Shown here: in pieces, positions 1 to 7,509 of the stretch
Layout of the letters: each line of letters begins with the position of its first letter
Numbering within the stretch: the stretch's first letter is position 1
Assembly (NCBI GenBank): GCA_015222055.1
Contig: JADFUR010000076.1
Span: forward strand, 1-40,327
From: Bacteroidota bacterium
GTDB lineage: Bacteria > Bacteroidota > Bacteroidia > Bacteroidales > B39-G9
DNA: 40,327 nucleotides
Reading direction: 5' to 3'
Notes under the pieces: generated by a model
Told to the model about the DNA's origin: nothing
The model's database searches: none
Seen by the model: only the letters and a program-made list of their open reading frames with translations
Program-made: the position numbers and the translations under genes

Positions 1-22
1 TAAACAAAATATTTCATAATAA

Positions 23-52
23 AAAAAGCCTTACATTACTGTAAGGCTTTTT
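23..52. terminator. Bidirectional hairpin terminator after tRNA-Val
   Basis: Perfect 13-bp inverted repeat (23-35 with 40-52, loop TTAC). The arms begin and end in A and T runs, so it can act as an intrinsic terminator in either direction. It lies one base past the tRNA-Val 3' end and probably ends that transcript. Confidence 0.75.
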
Positions 53-53
53 G

Positions 54-128
54 TGGGCGGTACTGGATTCGAACCAGTGACCCCCTGCTTGTAAGGCAGG
101 TGCTCTGAACCAACTGAGCTAATCGCCC
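54..128 (-). tRNA. tRNA-Val (anticodon UAC)
   Basis: The minus strand reads GGGCGAT, a D arm (GCTC...GAGC), an anticodon stem CCTGC/GCAGG with loop CTTACAA (anticodon TAC, valine), a T arm ACTGG-TTCGAAT-CCAGT, and 3' ACCGCCC with discriminator A. The acceptor stem has one A-C mismatch at the sixth pair. CCA is not encoded; the next bases are CAA, so it must be added after transcription. A consensus promoter lies about 75 bases upstream and a hairpin terminator follows directly. Confidence 0.93.
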
Positions 129-165
129 TAAATTTCATTTCAATATTTCAAAAAAAATTCGCAAT

Positions 166-185
166 ACTAATTGAGCTAAATACCC
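166..185 (-). pseudogene. Fossil 5' end of a second tRNA gene
   Basis: The minus strand reads GGGTATTTAGCTCAATTAGT, the acceptor 5' strand, the TA linker and the start of a D arm of a typical bacterial tRNA. It resembles the neighbouring tRNA-Val start (GGGCGATTAGCTCAGTTGGT). No anticodon, T arm or 3' acceptor strand follows; the sequence becomes A/T-rich after about 20 bases. It sits roughly ten bases downstream of the expected start of transcription, where the first tRNA of an operon would lie. I infer a deleted tRNA, leaving a leader for tRNA-Val. Confidence 0.5.
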
Positions 186-201
186 TTTCAAAATTGCGAT
201 G

Positions 202-232
202 CAAAGATAATAGACAATTTCTTTTATACAAA
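202..232 (-). promoter_or_regulatory. Bacteroidota-type sigma-A promoter of tRNA-Val
   Basis: On the minus strand TTTG (232-229) is followed after exactly 19 bases by TATCTTTG (209-202). This matches the known Bacteroidota consensus, TTTG at -33 and TAnnTTTG at -7, with its usual spacing. Transcription should start near 195. The rest of the gap up to 442 is very AT-rich, and I see nothing else in it that I can name. Confidence 0.65.
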
Positions 233-442
233 CAAAAATATGTTTTTTTTATTATTTATTTTTAAAAAAAATATAATTCGCTGTAAGTTAAATCTGTATG
301 ATTGTATGAAATAATTTCTATTTTTTTAAGCAAAAAAAACAATTAAATTCTCAATCTTTTGGACTTAATGTTTTTTTTTTCATTAAAATTTGTAAACTTT
401 GACAAATGAATTTTTTAAATAATAAATTTTAAATTTAAGATA

Positions 443-2659
443 ATGAATAATTACAAAAAAATAATTCTATTGCTAATTAGTTTATTGATTAGTAGTATTG
501 TCTTTTCTCAAAACAGTATTGAGAAATATAATAAAATCACACTTGAGGATCTTTGGGAAAATTTTACTTTTTCTCCACAATCTGTTTATGGATTAAGATC
601 AATGAACGATGGAGTGCATTATACTGTTATTGAAAAACATAAAGAAATTTCTAAGTACAGTTTTAAGACCGGTAAAAAAGTTGCCACTATTTTTGGTATT
701 GACGAATTAAAAAATGATTCTATAATTAAATATATCTCTAACTATGAATTTAATCACGATGAAACGAAAATTTTATTTTATATCAATCGTACAAGAATTT
801 ATCGTCGTTCGTTTACAGCCAATTATTATGTTTGGAATTTAAAAACAAAAAAACTTTTGCCAGTCTCTACAAATGGAAAGCAACGAATTGCTACTTTTTC
901 GCCTGATGGTATAAATATTGCATTTGTGAGAGATAATAATCTTTTTATTAAAAATATTGTTGATGGAAAGGAAAAACAAATTACTAACGACGGTGAATTT
1001 AATAAAATCATAAATGGAGCACCTGACTGGGTGTATGAAGAAGAATTTGAATATAATAAAGCATTTGCCTGGTCGCCAAAAGGAGATTATCTTGCATTTT
1101 GTAAATTTGATGAAAGTAATGTTCGTGTTTTTAATATGACACTCTTTCAAGGTTCACATCCCACCAAAAAAAAGAACGCTTTATATCCAGAAAATTATGC
1201 ATTTAAATATCCAAAAGCAGGAGAGGACAACTCAATTGTTTCTGTTCATGTTTATAATTTAAATTCTGAAAAAACATCAAAAATGGATGTTGGTGATGAA
1301 AAAGACCAATACATACCTCGAATAAGATGGACACAGCAAAATAATCTTTTAGGAATAATACGCTTAAACAGACTTCAAAATAATGTTGAGATACTTTTAG
1401 ATAATGCAGATAACGGTAGTTCTAAAGTTATTTATACTGAAAAAAATAAGTATTATATTGATGAAGGAAATTTCGACAATATTACTTTTTTAAAAGATGG
1501 TAAACATTTTATTTTAACAAGTGAAAAAAGTGCTTATTCTCATATCTATCTTTATAATATGGATGGCTCATTGGTTAATCAGGTAACAAAAGGTAACTGG
1601 GATGTTACAGATTATATTGGTTTCGATAGCAAGAAAAAACTTGTTTATTATATATCAGCAGAAACATCACCTTTGAGACGCAATGTCTATTCAATAAAAA
1701 TTGATGGAACAAAAAAGAAAAAATTATCAACCCAAGAAGGAACAAACGATGCTTTGTTTAGTGAAGGTTTTAAATATTATATTAATTATTTTTCAAACGC
1801 AACTACTCCTAATTATGTAACTTTAAATAACAGTAAGGGTAAATTGATTAGAGTTTTAGAAGACAATAAAAAATTGATTGATACATTAAAAACTTATCAG
1901 TATAATACAAAAGAATTTTTTAGCTTTAAAACATCTGAAAATGTAGAGTTAAACGGATGGATTTTAAAACCATACAATTTTGACAAGAATAAGAAATATC
2001 CTGTATTAATGACACAATACAGTGGCCCTAATTCTCAGTCTGCAACTGATGAATGGAGTTTTGGTTGGAACCAATATTTAGCACAAAATGGATATATTGT
2101 TGTTTGTGTTGATGGAAGAGGAACAGGAGCAAGAGGAGAGGGGTTTCGTAAAATGACTTATCTGCAACTCGGAAAATATGAGACTATTGACCAAATTGAA
2201 GCAGCCAAATATTTGGGTTCATTACCCTATGTTGATGAATCAAGAATTGGGATTTGGGGTTGGAGTTATGGTGGTTTTATGTCGTTATTATGTATGACTA
2301 AAGGAGCCGATTATTTTAAAGCAGGAATTGCTGTAGCACCAGTAACTAACTGGCGCTATTACGATAATGTTTATACTGAGCGATTTATGCGTACCCCACA
2401 AGAAAATCCTAAAGGATATGATGATAATTCACCAATAAATTTTGTTGATAAACTTAACGGGAAATTATTAATATGTCACGGTACAGCCGATGATAATGTT
2501 CATGTTCAAAATTCAATTGAAATAATTGAGAAATTGGTTCAAGCAAATAAACAATTTGAAATGCAATATTATCCTAATCGTAATCACAGTATTTATGGTG
2601 GAAAAACAAGATTGCATTTATACACAAGAATGACAAATTTTGTTTTAGATAATCTTTAA
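443..2659 (+). CDS. Dipeptidyl peptidase IV (S9B)
   Basis: Secreted prolyl dipeptidyl peptidase that removes X-Pro/X-Ala dipeptides from peptide N-termini, probably in the periplasm. Residues 1-23 are a signal peptide (lysines, hydrophobic stretch, ending near SQ). Residues about 100-490 form the DPP-IV N-terminal beta-propeller and the C-terminal third is an alpha/beta hydrolase. The double glutamate that binds the substrate amino terminus is present in DWVYEEEF (E200/E201). The catalytic triad is visible: S608 in GWSYGG, D683 in HGTADDNVH and H715 in NRNHS. Its 738 residues are normal for the family. PepD and an MFSD1-like carrier follow on the same strand. No Shine-Dalgarno site precedes the ATG, as usual in this phylum. 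Family assignment is very secure; exact specificity is inferred. Confidence 0.95.
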   Translation: MNNYKKIILLLISLLISSIVFSQNSIEKYNKITLEDLWENFTFSPQSVYGLRSMNDGVHYTVIEKHKEISKYSFKTGKKVATIFGIDELKNDSIIKYISNYEFNHDETKILFYINRTRIYRRSFTANYYVWNLKTKKLLPVSTNGKQRIATFSPDGINIAFVRDNNLFIKNIVDGKEKQITNDGEFNKIINGAPDWVYEEEFEYNKAFAWSPKGDYLAFCKFDESNVRVFNMTLFQGSHPTKKKNALYPENYAFKYPKAGEDNSIVSVHVYNLNSEKTSKMDVGDEKDQYIPRIRWTQQNNLLGIIRLNRLQNNVEILLDNADNGSSKVIYTEKNKYYIDEGNFDNITFLKDGKHFILTSEKSAYSHIYLYNMDGSLVNQVTKGNWDVTDYIGFDSKKKLVYYISAETSPLRRNVYSIKIDGTKKKKLSTQEGTNDALFSEGFKYYINYFSNATTPNYVTLNNSKGKLIRVLEDNKKLIDTLKTYQYNTKEFFSFKTSENVELNGWILKPYNFDKNKKYPVLMTQYSGPNSQSATDEWSFGWNQYLAQNGYIVVCVDGRGTGARGEGFRKMTYLQLGKYETIDQIEAAKYLGSLPYVDESRIGIWGWSYGGFMSLLCMTKGADYFKAGIAVAPVTNWRYYDNVYTERFMRTPQENPKGYDDNSPINFVDKLNGKLLICHGTADDNVHVQNSIEIIEKLVQANKQFEMQYYPNRNHSIYGGKTRLHLYTRMTNFVLDNL

Positions 2660-2829
2660 GAATTATTATTGCTATAATTTTATTATTTTTGTGCTTATTG
2701 AGATGTCGTGTGAAAATTTTTTAATACAATAAATTAATGCACTATGAGTTAATATTAGAAATCTAATAAAGAAACCGTAAATAATAAATATGAATTTTGT
2801 TTTATAAATAAATATAAAAATAAATAATT

Positions 2830-4290
2830 ATGAGTAATGAGATAAAAAATTTAGAGCCTAAATCATTATGGAAAAATTTTTATGGACTAACACAAGCTCC
2901 TCGTCCTTCAAAAATGGAAACAAAAGCTGTAGAGTTTATTAAAAATTTTGGTGAAAATTTAGGACTAGAAACAGTAATAGATGAAGTTGGAAATATTATT
3001 ATAAGAAAACCTGCTACCTCAGGTATGGAAAATAGAAAGACCGTTATTTTGCAAGGTCATATTGATATGGTTCCTCAAAAAAATAATGATGTAGATCATG
3101 ATTTTGAAAAAGACCCTATTGATGCATATATTGATGGAGATTGGGTTACAGCAAGAGGAACAACTCTTGGAGCTGACAATGGTATGGGTGTTGCTGCTGC
3201 TATGAGTGTGCTTGAATCAAAAGATATAGCTCACGGACCTATTGAAGCATTGTTCACTATTGATGAAGAAACAGGAATGACAGGTGCTTTTGGATTAAAA
3301 GATGATGCTTTAAAAGGCGACATATTAATGAATTTAGATTCTGAAGAAGAAGGAGAACTTTATGTTGGTTGTGCTGGTGGTACAAATGCAACTATGACCT
3401 TTCATTATAAAGAAACTAAGGTTGATGATAATGTAGCTCCTTACAAATTAATTTTAACTGGTTTAAAAGGTGGACATTCAGGAATGGACATTCTTTTACA
3501 ACGCGGAAATGCAAATAAATTAATGATTCGTTTTCTAAAAAAAGCTATTAGCGAATTAAATGTTAGACTTTCGAGCATTGACGGAGGAACTTTACGTAAT
3601 GCTATTCCTAGAGATGCTAATGCTATTATCACAGTGCCTGTTGAAAATGAAAAAGCTTTAATTGAACTTGTTGCAAAATATCAAGCTATTTATAAGAATG
3701 AATTAGCAGAAGTTGAACCAAATTTTGAATTTACTGTTGAAAAAACAGATATGCCAAAATCATTAATTGAAGAAATGGTTCAAGACGATTTAGTTAATGC
3801 TGTTTATGTTTGTCCAAATGGTGTTATTCGTATGAGCGATACTATGAAAGGAATGGTTGAGACATCTTCAAACTTAGCAACTGTAAAATCAGAAAATGGA
3901 ACAATTACAGCTCTATGCTTGTTAAGAAGTTCTGTTGATAGTGCAAAAGAAGATTTAGGCGAAGCAATATCTAGTGCATTTAAGTTAGCTGGTGCTGATG
4001 TTGTTCTTGACGGCGAATACCCAGGATGGAAACCAAATATGGATTCTCCAATTTTGAAAGAGATGAGAGGTATTTACAAAAATCTTTATGGTAAAGATCC
4101 TGAAATTAAAGCTATACACGCAGGTTTAGAGTGTGGATTATTAGGAGGTGTTTATCCAAATCTTGATATGATTTCTTTTGGTCCTTCTATTAATTTTCCT
4201 CATTCTCCAGATGAAAAGGTTAATATTAAAACAGTTGAGAAATTTTGGAATTTCTTAGTTGAAACTTTAAAAGAAGTACCGAAAAAATAA
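2830..4290 (+). CDS. pepD: Aminoacyl-histidine dipeptidase PepD (M20C)
   Basis: Cytosolic di-zinc dipeptidase (carnosinase-type, broad specificity for dipeptides including Xaa-His). The 486-residue length matches PepD closely. Metal-site motifs in order are GHIDMV (H77, D79), GADNGMG (D116, bridging Asp), DEETGMTG (E146/E147, general base and ligand), LDSEEEG and HAGLECG (H430, last ligand). GGHSGMDI marks the lid/dimerisation domain. There is no signal peptide, consistent with a cytosolic role. It is 170 bp after DPP-IV on the same strand and ends at a strong terminator. A TATTTTTG box at 2684-2691 could serve as its own -7 element, but I see no matching -33. It would hydrolyse dipeptides brought into the cell. 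Confidence 0.95.
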   Translation: MSNEIKNLEPKSLWKNFYGLTQAPRPSKMETKAVEFIKNFGENLGLETVIDEVGNIIIRKPATSGMENRKTVILQGHIDMVPQKNNDVDHDFEKDPIDAYIDGDWVTARGTTLGADNGMGVAAAMSVLESKDIAHGPIEALFTIDEETGMTGAFGLKDDALKGDILMNLDSEEEGELYVGCAGGTNATMTFHYKETKVDDNVAPYKLILTGLKGGHSGMDILLQRGNANKLMIRFLKKAISELNVRLSSIDGGTLRNAIPRDANAIITVPVENEKALIELVAKYQAIYKNELAEVEPNFEFTVEKTDMPKSLIEEMVQDDLVNAVYVCPNGVIRMSDTMKGMVETSSNLATVKSENGTITALCLLRSSVDSAKEDLGEAISSAFKLAGADVVLDGEYPGWKPNMDSPILKEMRGIYKNLYGKDPEIKAIHAGLECGLLGGVYPNLDMISFGPSINFPHSPDEKVNIKTVEKFWNFLVETLKEVPKK

Positions 4291-4311
4291 AAAATTTATA
4301 TAATTATCTTT

Positions 4312-4342
4312 AAGGCAAGGAATTATCCTTGCCTTTTTTTTT
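4312..4342 (+). terminator. Intrinsic terminator after pepD
   Basis: 9-bp GC-containing stem AAGGCAAGG/CCTTGCCTT (4312-4320 with 4327-4335), 6-nt loop, then a run of nine T up to 4342. It lies 22 bases after the pepD stop, so the MFS gene downstream probably has its own promoter. Confidence 0.85.
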
Positions 4343-4424
4343 GCACAAAAATATAATTTGCTATTAAGTATTATTATTATAATTTTATGGGTTTTAAATT
4401 TTTAAATTAATAAATGATAAAAGT

Positions 4425-5789
4425 ATGAATAATATAAAAAAAGCCCTTAATGAATCCGCCGTAATTAGATGGACAGCATTAATTTTAATAAGCATTGTAA
4501 TGTTCTCAAGCTATTATTTTTATGATGTTTATTCTGCTATTAAGGAAGCATTACAAAATCAAGCAGGTCTAAGTAACACTGAATATGGTTCAATGTATGG
4601 AGCTTATTCTTTCTTAAATGCTTTTGGTATGGCTTTTATTGGAGGTATGCTTCTTGATAAATGGGGAATTAGAAAAACAGGTATTATATTTTTATCTTTT
4701 CTACTAATTGGAACTGTAATAACAGCTTACGGTTCAAGTAGTTTGTTTAATAGTAATAGTTTTTCTTATGGTTTTATTAACTCTTTCTGGAAAGACTATA
4801 CACCTGCATTAAAAATGATGGTTCTTGGTAGAATCTTATTTGGTCTGGGAGCCGAAACTTTTTACGTTGTTATAAATAAAGTTATTGCAAAATGGTTTAA
4901 AGGTCATGAGTTAGCATTAGCATTTTCTATAAGTCTTGCTCTTGGTCGTTTTGGTACTGCTGCTGCGTTTATGTATTCACCTCGATTAATAGCTAATTCA
5001 CATCATTTCGATACTGCTCCTTGGTTTGGTGTTATGTTAGTTTTAGTATCATTTATTTTATTCTTTGTCTATTTAGTTTATGATTTTCGTTTTGATAAAT
5101 CTGTTGCAGGGAAAAATATTGAAGAAGATGAAGAAGAAAAATTCCATTTTAATGATGTAGCTAAGTTATTTAAAAATCGTTCTTTTATTTATATTACTTT
5201 ACTTTGTGTAACTTTTTATTCAGCAGTATTTCCATTTTTAGGTTTCGCTGCAGATTTTCTTCATAATAAATTTGCATTTTCTTTAAAATTAAGTGGAGAC
5301 CTTACAACAATTCTTCCTTATGGAACGATTTTATTTACACCTCTATTTGGATGGTTTACAGATCATAAGGGTAAAAATGCTTCAGTTATGATTTGGGGAT
5401 CATTATTACTTATTCTTGTTCATTTAACTTTTGCTGTTACCAGTATTTCTCCTTATGTTCCTTTATTTGTTTTAGGTGTCGCATTTTCATTAGTGCCTGC
5501 TGCAATGTGGCCTTCAGTTGCACGTATTGTTGACGAAAACAGTCTTGGTACTGCTTACGGTATCATGTTTTCTATTCAGAATTGGGGGTTAATGCTGTTT
5601 CCTTATTTAATAGGAAAAGTTTTAGATATTTCAAATAAAAATGTTCCTGACGGTGCTCCTTTAGACTATACAAACTCAATTTTAATGCTTGCTGTTCTTG
5701 GTGTTTTAGGAATTGTTTTTGCTTTATTACTAAAACGTGAAGATAAAGTTTCAGGCTATGGGCTAGAATTACCTAATAAAAAAGAATAA
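4425..5789 (+). CDS. MFS transporter, MFSD1-like (possible dipeptide carrier)
   Basis: A 454-residue major facilitator protein with about 12 hydrophobic segments and a charged central loop near residues 225-245 (KNIEEDEEEKFH). The motif A-like loop is GGMLLDKWGIRKTG (73-86). The N-terminal half (YYFYDVYSAIK, SMYGAYSFLNAF, RILFGLGAETF, LGRFGTAA) resembles the MFSD1 branch rather than sugar or drug carriers. E144 (GLGAETF) and R175 (LALGRFGT) are 31 residues apart. From memory, the two residues reported to hold the dipeptide termini in mammalian MFSD1, E150 and R181, have the same spacing. Gene order after DPP-IV and PepD also points to dipeptide uptake. MFS membership is certain; the substrate is inference. 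Confidence 0.85.
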   Translation: MNNIKKALNESAVIRWTALILISIVMFSSYYFYDVYSAIKEALQNQAGLSNTEYGSMYGAYSFLNAFGMAFIGGMLLDKWGIRKTGIIFLSFLLIGTVITAYGSSSLFNSNSFSYGFINSFWKDYTPALKMMVLGRILFGLGAETFYVVINKVIAKWFKGHELALAFSISLALGRFGTAAAFMYSPRLIANSHHFDTAPWFGVMLVLVSFILFFVYLVYDFRFDKSVAGKNIEEDEEEKFHFNDVAKLFKNRSFIYITLLCVTFYSAVFPFLGFAADFLHNKFAFSLKLSGDLTTILPYGTILFTPLFGWFTDHKGKNASVMIWGSLLLILVHLTFAVTSISPYVPLFVLGVAFSLVPAAMWPSVARIVDENSLGTAYGIMFSIQNWGLMLFPYLIGKVLDISNKNVPDGAPLDYTNSILMLAVLGVLGIVFALLLKREDKVSGYGLELPNKKE

Positions 5790-5823
5790 ATATAATTATA
5801 ACACTCAAATTGTTATTAAAATT

Positions 5824-5853
5824 AAAAGGCTATCCAAAATTGGATAGCCTTTT
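5824..5853. terminator. Bidirectional terminator between convergent genes
   Basis: 14-bp perfect inverted repeat AAAAGGCTATCCAA/TTGGATAGCCTTTT with a 2-base centre (practical loop slightly larger). A and T runs flank it on both sides. It separates the MFS gene from the convergent hsp20 and can serve both. Confidence 0.8.
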
Positions 5854-5873
5854 AAAAATTGGGGTTTTAAAAT

Positions 5874-6302
5874 TTATGAAATCTTAATTGTTCTTAAAGG
5901 TTTTTCCTTAGCTTCTTCCTTTTTAGGAATTACAACTTGTAAGATTCCATCTTTATATGAAGCTTCAATTTTATCAGAATTTACACTGTCAGGCAAAATA
6001 AAAGTTCGTTCAAACGAAGAATATAAAAATTCTTTTCTAACGACTTTGTCATCTGCTTCATCTTTATTTTCTTCCTTTTCAGAAGAAATTTTTAAAACAT
6101 CGTTGTGAATATCGATTTTGAAATCTTCGGTTTTAAAACCAGGTATTGCAAATTCAATTTTAAATTCGTTTTTGTTCTCTGTAATATTTACAGACGGCAT
6201 TGTGAAATCGCTTGACGCTTTAAAAAAATTTGATGGTTCGTTGCCGAAAAATTCGTTTAACAAATTTGGTAACATTGCTCTGGTTCTTAAGTTTGGTAAC
6301 AT
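5874..6302 (-). CDS. Small heat-shock protein Hsp20/alpha-crystallin
   Basis: ATP-independent holdase chaperone that binds unfolding proteins in the cytosol. Its 142 residues fit the bacterial sHSP size. Residues about 35-130 are the alpha-crystallin domain, including PSVNITENKNEFKIEFAIPG, FKIDIHNDVLKISSEKEE and the hallmark YKDGILQVVIPK. The C-terminal LRTIKIS supplies the I-x-I anchor. The first 15 residues contain MLPNL twice, from two GTTACCAAA stretches 27 bases apart, so a start at 6275 is also possible. The upstream start is preferred because a perfect AGGAGG lies 8 nt before it. The upstream 250 bp contain inverted repeats that may bind a regulator. Confidence 0.93.
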   Translation of the reverse strand: MLPNLRTRAMLPNLLNEFFGNEPSNFFKASSDFTMPSVNITENKNEFKIEFAIPGFKTEDFKIDIHNDVLKISSEKEENKDEADDKVVRKEFLYSSFERTFILPDSVNSDKIEASYKDGILQVVIPKKEEAKEKPLRTIKIS

Positions 6303-6310
6303 TTTTTTGT

Positions 6311-6316
6311 CCTCCT
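6311..6316 (-). promoter_or_regulatory. Strong Shine-Dalgarno site of hsp20
   Basis: AGGAGG on the minus strand, 8 bases before the ATG at 6302. It fixes the start choice. The other genes here that I checked lack such a site, and Bacteroidota generally do not use one, so it is exceptional. Confidence 0.75.
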
Positions 6317-6353
6317 ATTTTAAGTTATTAATTAATTTTTTTCGTTCGCTATA

Positions 6354-6462
6354 GGTATATTCAATTAATATACCAACCGAAAAATGGAAACTAATTGTCA
6401 CTAAATTCTATTGTATATGTCATTATGTCATACATTTATAATAATGCACGACAAAATGTCGT
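6354..6462 (-). promoter_or_regulatory. Inverted repeats upstream of hsp20
   Basis: Two short palindromes lie in the hsp20 leader/promoter region: GGTATAT-N7-ATATACC (6354-6374) and ACGACA-N3-TGTCGT (6448-6462). Between them the block ATGTCAT occurs twice in close succession (about 6417-6431). No TAnnTTTG box with proper spacing was found, so this may be regulated differently from housekeeping genes. The function as operator or RNA hairpin is a guess from position and symmetry. Confidence 0.35.
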
Positions 6463-6557
6463 ACAAAAATTAAATTATACAGTAGCATTTTAAATTAAGA
6501 TAAAATTAATTGGAAGTAAAAATAAAGTCACAAAAGATAAAATCTAAAAAAGAAACT

Positions 6558-7391
6558 CTAGTGTTCATAAAACAACATCGAAACGTAATCTACAACCTCC
6601 TGAGATGGAATTATTTCTCCTGAATTTCCTCTGCGTAATATTTTAGTATGCGGATTGTCTGATATAAGTTTTGAGAACTCTATTAATGCCATAATTGGCC
6701 CATAACCGCAAACAGACAAATGCTTTTTACGAACAACATTATTTATGGCACAGGCATCTAAATTTAAAATATTATCTAAAACAAAATTGTCTAAACATTT
6801 CCCATATTCAGGTTCTACATAATGTGAAAAATCTGATGAAGCAATAATCAAAAAATTTTTTTCAATTTTAAAACATGCTTTATAAATTTCTTCAGCCAAT
6901 AATTTTGCATTTTCGTAATTTTGATAAGACATCGTTATTGGTACAATTTTAAAGTCATAATCTAAAAAGTATTGAAGCAGAGGCAACATAACTTCACCGG
7001 AATGTTCATATCTATGTGTTTCTGTTGATGTTGAAAAAGGAAGTTGTGACATAAATTCAGTATCTAGACTAACATTTCCCAAAGGTGTTTCCCAACAATC
7101 GTTGCTGTCTAACTCAGTGTTATATCCATAAGATGAATGATTGGGATTAATAATAATAATCGTATCGTATTGCAGTGATGATTTTTTTATTATATCGAAA
7201 AAATGTACAGCCTCATAAGCAGAAAACATATATCCGGCATGAGGCACAATTCCCCCAATTATTTTGTGTTTTGATAAACTTAAATCAATATTATTTTTTT
7301 CTTTAAGATAAATTGAATTAATTAATTTTTTTAATTCGTTTTTTTCTTCCGGGTAAAATTTCCCGGCTACAGCTGGTTTTCTAATTTTCAT
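6558..7391 (-). CDS. amrB: AmmeMemoRadiSam system protein B (MEMO1 family)
   Basis: 277-residue MEMO1/AmrB protein, related in fold to class III extradiol (LigB-type) dioxygenases. It starts with the family signature MKIRKPAVAGKFYP. Likely iron-site residues are H51 (GIVPHAGY), H85 (NPNHSSYG) and C228 (SVCGYGP), which match H49, H81 and C244 of human MEMO1. Further conserved blocks are EHSGEVMLPLLQYF and ASSDFSHY (D187, H190). The radical SAM partner AmrS is encoded just upstream on the same strand, with 174 bp between them. The biochemical role of the system is unknown; a redox or radical modification function is inferred from its partners. Confidence 0.92.
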   Translation of the reverse strand: MKIRKPAVAGKFYPEEKNELKKLINSIYLKEKNNIDLSLSKHKIIGGIVPHAGYMFSAYEAVHFFDIIKKSSLQYDTIIIINPNHSSYGYNTELDSNDCWETPLGNVSLDTEFMSQLPFSTSTETHRYEHSGEVMLPLLQYFLDYDFKIVPITMSYQNYENAKLLAEEIYKACFKIEKNFLIIASSDFSHYVEPEYGKCLDNFVLDNILNLDACAINNVVRKKHLSVCGYGPIMALIEFSKLISDNPHTKILRRGNSGEIIPSQEVVDYVSMLFYEH

Positions 7392-7433
7392 CGGAATATA
7401 ATTTTAAGTTTTTATTGTTTTTACTAAAAGTTT

Positions 7434-7509
7434 GTCATTTCGAAGCGAGGTACGAGCGAGAAATCTCCTTTTTAATTGATGGGGATTCCTCATGTTCGTT
7501 CGGAATGAC
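7434..7509. repeat. Imperfect hairpin repeat between amrS and amrB
   Basis: Outer arms GTCATTTCGAA (7434-7444) and TTCGGAATGAC (7499-7509) pair with one mismatch. Inner segments GAGAAATCTCC and GGGGATTCCTC also pair imperfectly. Base composition is richer in G+C than the surroundings. It resembles the small palindromic, non-coding mobile repeats of Bacteroidota and shares the GTCATT arm theme with the elements at 8806 and 24977. Confidence 0.6.

Follow-up and report, generated by a model that had tools for sequence, protein, structure and literature searches.

The mammalian protein MFSD1 is described as a lysosomal dipeptide uniporter, and a structure of the mouse protein is available as PDB entry 8r8q (PMC11252000, PMC10990142). 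Its partner subunit GLMP is suggested to be needed against degradation, while being dispensable for transport (PMC10990142). In bacteria, a dipeptide route has been described for Porphyromonas gingivalis, in which periplasmic dipeptidyl-peptidases (DPPs) are combined with POT as the main carrier, OPT with a moderate share, and a cytosolic dipeptidase (PMC8048996). The Pht carriers of Legionella have roles in the uptake of threonine (PhtA), valine (PhtJ) and thymidine (PMC3920079), and MFSD1 is stated to be homologous to these amino-acid carriers (PMC6819133). Here, we have analyzed a stretch of 40,327 nucleotides from a Bacteroidales genome (contig JADFUR010000076.1, assembly GCA_015222055.1), termed the window below. 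At positions 443-5789 it encodes a dipeptidyl-peptidase IV (DPP-IV), a PepD-type dipeptidase and a carrier of the major facilitator superfamily (MFS) that resembles MFSD1. A preliminary description had read these genes as a possible dipeptide-harvesting set. Judged from sequence and by analogy, with the tree and the PepD neighborhood in its support, we consider this reading probable, at roughly three chances in four.

The locus resembles each of the described systems in part. Like mammalian MFSD1, the carrier would connect a compartment where proteolysis takes place with the cytosol, and it shares with the mouse protein a clade, 33% identity across the aligned part, and a pocket that includes the equivalents of E150 and R181. 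It differs in being bacterial and presumably located in the inner membrane, in the positions of Q176, Y365 and Q393, and in its linkage to peptidase genes. With the P. gingivalis route it would have in common a periplasmic dipeptidyl-peptidase, an inner-membrane dipeptide carrier and a cytosolic dipeptidase, but in the window DPP-IV and PepD are accompanied by the gene of an MFSD1-type carrier and not by that of a POT. The POT/PTR2/SLC15 proteins are alike in their MFS fold and, by hypothesis, in dipeptide substrates; unlike them, the window carrier has no PTR2 match, lacks the ExxERFxYY motif in the first transmembrane helix (TM1) and falls into a separate clade. The Legionella Pht proteins, compared here by description only, share the stated homology to MFSD1 and differ by their amino-acid and thymidine roles. 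A dipeptide-harvest set built with an MFSD1-type carrier would therefore be new, whereas MFSD1 itself, DPP-POT-dipeptidase routes and the Pht relatives are already known. In the literature covered, which included few subscription papers, we found no characterized bacterial member of the nearer MFSD1 clade. Searches on Bacteroides dipeptide MFS transporters and dipeptidases, and on OPT-PqqD-dipeptidase operons, returned no title on such gene sets, and PMC5974234 does not mention MFSD1. The earlier statement that bacterial MFSD1-like proteins have no assigned substrate holds, within this literature, for the nearer clade, but not for the distant Pht relatives, going by what is stated in PMC9333335 and PMC6819133.

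Genes of the window and identity of the carrier

The ORF list and translations give three co-directional open reading frames (ORFs) in this part of the window:

443-2659, plus strand: dipeptidyl-peptidase IV (family S9B), exported by prediction; Pfam DPPIV_N and Peptidase_S9, match to btDPP4
2830-4290, plus strand: PepD-type nonspecific (Xaa-His) dipeptidase, cytosolic, M20 family; TIGR01893 and PDB 3mru
4425-5789, plus strand: MFS carrier of the MFSD1 family, 454 amino acids (aa); Pfam, PDB search, alignment, tree and AlphaFold2 model

The product of the first gene has the beta-propeller and the hydrolase domain of DPP-IV, both well above cut-off (DPPIV_N 336 bits, Peptidase_S9 205 bits). Its top PDB match is btDPP4 (743 bits), and the DWVYEEE and GWSYGG stretches are conserved. 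By eye, the N-terminus reads as a signal peptide ending ...VFS/Q. Dipeptide release by the enzyme is predicted to take place on the outer side of the inner membrane. PepD scores 622 bits against the curated cut-off of 344 for TIGR01893 and 535 bits with PDB 3mru; inspection of its N-terminus by eye revealed no signal peptide. The third gene product matches Pfam MFS_1 with 126 bits, MFS_1 and MFS_2 being its sole matches at E 0.001. All three assignments of the preliminary description are thereby upheld.

A phmmer search of the carrier against all PDB chains gave mouse MFSD1 (8r8q, E 4.4e-45) as the sole match up to E 10, and a profile built from 13 family members scored MFSD1 with 218 bits, the runner-up being MCT1 with 21.7. 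Starting from MFSD1, phmmer scored the window carrier with 157 bits, a second copy from the same genome with 97 and the best of 14 outgroup MFS proteins with 5.5. These outgroups comprise six proteins from E. coli K-12, one POT from locus L127 and seven of the ten other MFS proteins of the own genome (those encoded on contigs 3, 89 and 110 were unused). An IQ-TREE tree of 39 rows was calculated from the outgroups, mouse MFSD1 and 24 bacterial proteins, two of them from the own genome and 22 drawn at random. A branch with support 100/100 separates the 24 bacterial proteins and mouse MFSD1 from NarK, DgoT, GlpT, XylE, LacY, the POTs and all remaining MFS proteins. By PDB search, phmmer and tree, the carrier is nearer to MFSD1 than to any other MFS branch sampled and its sequence places it in the MFSD1 clade, in a tree with a single eukaryotic member and no Pht protein. 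Both the proposed resemblance to the MFSD1 branch and the proposed placement in a tree have thus come out in favor of the preliminary description. Mouse MFSD1 is nested within the bacterial group (93/95, unstarred). Since it has a long branch and is the only eukaryotic protein in the tree, no safe claim on the origin of MFSD1 can be drawn.

A carrier of the sugar, nitrate or galactonate type is rejected on the basis of the tree and of the NCBIfam scores. The carrier stays below every NCBIfam cut-off, with 55 of 395 bits for 2A0114 and 49 of 312 for NarK. Membership in the POT family is rejected because of the missing PTR2 match and the separate clade; the TM1 letters, checked by eye, do not show the ExxERFxYY motif, which is given as the POT motif in PMC10990142. 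Fold comparison was less decisive. With an AlphaFold2 model of the carrier (mean pLDDT 88.9), Foldseek ranked 8r8q first (E 1.8e-13, 28% identity), while in VIA-align 2 chains of OxlT, VAChT and VMAT lead (Z 39.5 downwards) and 8r8q is not among the 50 matches shown, the last of which has Z 34.9. Conformation may dominate this ranking. Fold comparison alone does not single out MFSD1, and we give it little weight.

Conservation of the dipeptide pocket

Fourteen residues surround the ligand in the mouse MFSD1 structure, thirteen taken from the density description and D60 from mutants (PMC11252000). In simulations reported by the same source, E150 and R181 clasp the dipeptide at its two termini. 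The source also describes these residues as important for stability and transport, and a Q176K mutant as showing no transport. In the window carrier 11 of the 14 residues are identical: Y30, Y33, D34, E144, R175 and Y265 correspond to mouse Y56, Y59, D60, E150, R181 and Y276, and F269, W362, Q385, N386 and L389 to F280, W373, Q396, N397 and L400. S170, F354 and F382 stand in place of Q176, Y365 and Q393. The spacing of E144 and R175, which the preliminary description had likened to mouse E150 and R181, is confirmed by the alignment, and PMC11252000 names the same two residues.

Conservation was counted over 121 family members, the window carrier included and carrier ORFs outside 380-600 aa excluded. 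The equivalents of E150, R181, Y276, W373 and Q396 are each found in 121/121, that of Y56 in 119/119, of N397 in 118/121 and of D60 in 111/119. At least 95% identity to the mouse residue is reached at 9 of the 14 pocket positions, against a background of 40 of 358 positions (hypergeometric 1.5e-6). The E/R pair occurs in none of the 14 outgroup proteins, where the distant alignments are unsure. A draw of genomes across the phylum (described below) gave the same picture for the five invariant residues, which are kept in all 19 called carriers. The dipeptide pocket of MFSD1 is, at the level of sequence, largely conserved in the bacterial family.

Recurrent linkage to PepD and peptide transport genes

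MFSD1-type carriers are encoded in 32 of 41 searched genomes of the order, the own genome included. In a genome collection, at least 590 of 596 pattern-matched stretches encode a relative, of which 80 were kept. Of the 118 genomes drawn across the phylum, 21 gave a match at E 1e-30. One of these is the genome of the window, and the other 20 lie outside its class, being labeled as the same phylum only. Neighborhoods were compared in 112 distinct loci (the window, the second copy, 33 loci of relatives and 77 from the collection) and, with 19 of the phylum draw, in 131. Excluded were L095, a duplicate of L048, as well as L115, L133 and, from the phylum draw, L179, where the carrier ORF was not called. 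A tblastn search of L179 found the carrier, but not PepD, OPT, M29 or DPP4.

PepD is the largest recurring neighbor cluster, being found within three genes of the carrier in 22 of the 112 loci and in none far from it. Within four genes it is present in 25 of these loci and directly adjacent in 17, always on the same strand, and it is absent from ranks 5-11. Over the 131 loci, PepD occupies 33 of 892 near positions and none of 709 far positions (Fisher 4.5e-9), which corresponds to 33 loci, with the strand of the carrier shared in 33/33. Counted per genome, PepD lies near the carrier in 8 of the 32 carrier-bearing genomes of the order and in 8 of the 20 from the phylum draw, where far less than one would be expected each on the assumption of 2 PepD copies and 3000 genes; in the order, 40 of the 41 genomes have one or two copies above cut-off. 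Binomial tails of 6e-12 for the order and 8e-14 for the phylum draw are obtained on this assumption; like the Fisher figure, they ignore kinship among loci. The placement of PepD varies between loci, upstream and downstream of the carrier both being observed. When mapped on a FastTree tree, the PepD label needs 20 state changes (34 rows with PepD, 67 without, and 39 rows near contig ends excluded), a count that is blind to gain versus loss. The conserved neighborhood on which the preliminary description had staked its reading therefore recurs, also outside the class in the phylum draw.

The part of DPP-IV in the proposed set is weaker. It lies near the carrier in 6 of the 131 loci (the window, L045, L064, L085, L110 and L181), each time together with PepD. 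The clearest and most compact case is L064, where DPP-IV, PepD and the carrier follow one another with gaps of 21 and 29 nt.

Other peptide genes accompany the carrier in the phylum draw. Of the 20 loci, 12 have an OPT oligopeptide transporter within four genes of it, 10 an M29 peptidase and 8 PepD (OPT and M29 calls come from Pfam on three OPT proteins and one M29 protein, the others being phmmer matches to those). At least one of the three is present in 15 of the 20, and a further locus, L186, has an M28 peptidase, while none of the queried peptide genes is near the carrier in L179, L183, L184 and L187. The gene order is OPT, PqqD-like, PepD, carrier, DPP-IV in L181, and carrier, OPT, PqqD-like, PepD in L059 from the window's own order. 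Peptide import and cleavage are hence the partners of the carrier in two separate settings.

In 15 loci a gene for a small PqqD-like protein accompanies the carrier at close range, with no case at the far positions and often together with OPT and PepD (L168:6725-7099, L171:8631-8966, a 126 aa ORF in L045, L059:12893-13261 and 11 other loci). Both proteins tested match PF05402. The PqqD fold binds peptides in peptide-modification systems. In the window, no ORF for such a protein was found between DPP-IV and PepD. We also observed PepD beside OPT on contig 178 of genome G011, contig 297 of G017 and contig 194 of G018, with no MFSD1-type gene listed there, as judged by coordinates. It is possible that PepD goes along with whatever importer of peptides a genome has.

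Points against the dipeptide reading and alternative explanations

Several observations weigh against a dipeptide-harvesting set, and we consider them together with the explanations that they favor. In 98 of the 131 loci, PepD is missing from the four genes on either side of the carrier, and the small share of loci with DPP-IV has been mentioned. A second neighbor cluster is found near the carrier in 17 loci and far in none, yet on the same strand in only 1 of the 17; it looks like plain shared synteny. Since this cluster has the same near-but-never-far pattern, such a pattern also arises from synteny, and it is a weak point of our argument that shared synteny accounts for part of the linkage between carrier and PepD. 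Ancestral synteny as the sole cause is disfavored by the occurrence of PepD on either side and by the 20 changes on the FastTree tree. The pocket is also not fully retained, as seen from the three substitutions in the window carrier, and among the 19 carriers called from the phylum draw, the position of N397 is occupied by N in 11, by Q in 7 and by A in 1. A glutamate in TM4 alone is not special, because DgoT has one that is one column off E150.

In the same 19 carriers we observed that those with PepD nearby have 7 N and 1 Q in the N397 column, and those without 4 N, 6 Q and 1 A, kinship being uncorrected. This association may reflect one clade.

Two further sequence elements concern the window itself:

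4312-4335, plus strand: hairpin with T run resembling an intrinsic terminator, between PepD and the carrier; scan and fold
4329-4357, plus strand: promoter-like site TTGCCT-17-TATAAT, 10/12; weak evidence

The fold of 4285-4350 has -15.2 kcal/mol (z -3.05), the scan found 8 terminator-like sites in positions 1-7500 where 2.4 are expected, and the sister genome (locus L045) has a similar hairpin. Promoter-like sites as a class are not above chance (48 found, 42.4 expected, sd 6.9). Because of the hairpin the carrier is probably on its own transcript in the window, a further point on the negative side. The gene that follows the carrier encodes a small heat-shock protein on the opposite strand. 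Together, the hairpin that splits PepD from the carrier and this neighbor would suit a merely coincidental gene order, with an unrelated substrate of the MFS protein. We regard coincidence as very improbable, given that the linkage recurs in both gene orders, with 20 changes on the tree and a shared strand in every one of the 33 loci.

A carrier for free amino acids, with peptidases nearby because they release amino acids, has to be taken more seriously. TCDB family 2.A.1.53 is the Pht family. MFSD1 has been classified there (PMC9333335), and the Pht proteins of Legionella, the bacterial MFSD1 relatives named in print, are described as moving amino acids, such as threonine by PhtA and valine by PhtJ; this is another weak point of our reading. 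In addition, the carrier gene lies directly 3' of a histidine ammonia-lyase (hutH) gene, on the same strand, in five Dysgonomonadaceae loci (L137, L141, L143, L146 and L151; called by Pfam in L141 and by clustering in the other four). The carrier may possibly be linked to histidine-containing dipeptides or to histidine in these bacteria, and an amino-acid carrier would fit this arrangement as well. However, the gene that recurs beside the carrier encodes a dipeptidase without signal peptide, which is sensible after dipeptide import and less so after amino-acid import, and outside the taxonomic class of the window an OPT transporter is a frequent partner of the carrier. The bacterial carriers also largely retain the dipeptide pocket of MFSD1, in a comparison made without Pht sequences. 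We therefore judge amino-acid transport to be unlikely.

The carrier cannot be the sole peptide route, because 38 of the 41 searched genomes of the order have a POT gene. In the own genome a POT gene is present as well, and a POT-related gene adjoins the second copy of the MFSD1 type; a search of it for OPT found none. Such co-occurrence, with POT across most of the order's searched genomes and with OPT and PepD in individual loci, would also be compatible with a carrier that works mainly outward, releasing dipeptides or amino acids that accumulate when peptides come in through POT or OPT, and MFSD1 is described as a uniporter prone to reverse (PMC11252000). As far as gene content tells, though, PepD would lower cytosolic dipeptides and thereby set up an inward gradient, and the external DPP-IV would be a dipeptide source. 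We think that an outward role is quite unlikely.

Copies and variants of the carrier

The second MFSD1-type gene of the own genome (L015:7586-9175, G000 contig 116) encodes 529 aa and retains the E/R pair. Past query residue 297, its C-terminal half carries about 70 additional residues of hydrophobic character, and the gene is divergent from the adjoining POT-related gene of 484 aa, whose product has ELFERWAWYG near its N-terminus. Two or three MFSD1-type genes in tandem are present in L046, L063, L085, L087, L102, L106, L110, L112 and others. In L020, L021, L038 and L040 the ORFs of relatives are 572-661 aa long, and the match is interrupted near query residue 401-409 and resumes later, which suggests a large insertion ahead of the last helix.

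Proposed function

We propose that the carrier is most likely an inner-membrane dipeptide carrier that feeds PepD. Exported DPP-IV would trim periplasmic peptides to dipeptides. The MFSD1-type carrier would bring these through the inner membrane, most likely by uniport as in mammalian MFSD1, and cytosolic PepD would cleave them at once. This cleavage would keep the internal dipeptide concentration low, and import would therefore be pulled forward. The mechanism is read from the analogy with the MFSD1 uniporter and with the P. gingivalis route as described in PMC11252000 and PMC8048996, and from this we infer the substrate, the direction, the uniport mechanism and a shared role of the three genes in the organism.

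A bolder proposal, which we put forward only tentatively and consider doubtful, is that the bacterial MFSD1 family consists of uniporters driven by PepD rather than by protons, and that it is ancestral to the eukaryotic lysosomal dipeptide exporter. If this were true, the lysosome would reuse an old bacterial step of dipeptide salvage from periplasm to cytosol. Through the MFSD1 pocket and the dipeptide-gene neighbors, an uncharacterized bacterial family gains a role that is directly testable. Its bacterial members could serve as simple models for the mechanism and structure of MFSD1. The family is large and, if the dipeptide reading is true, it would give Bacteroidota that use peptides, some gut species among them, a further way of taking up dipeptides in addition to POT and OPT.

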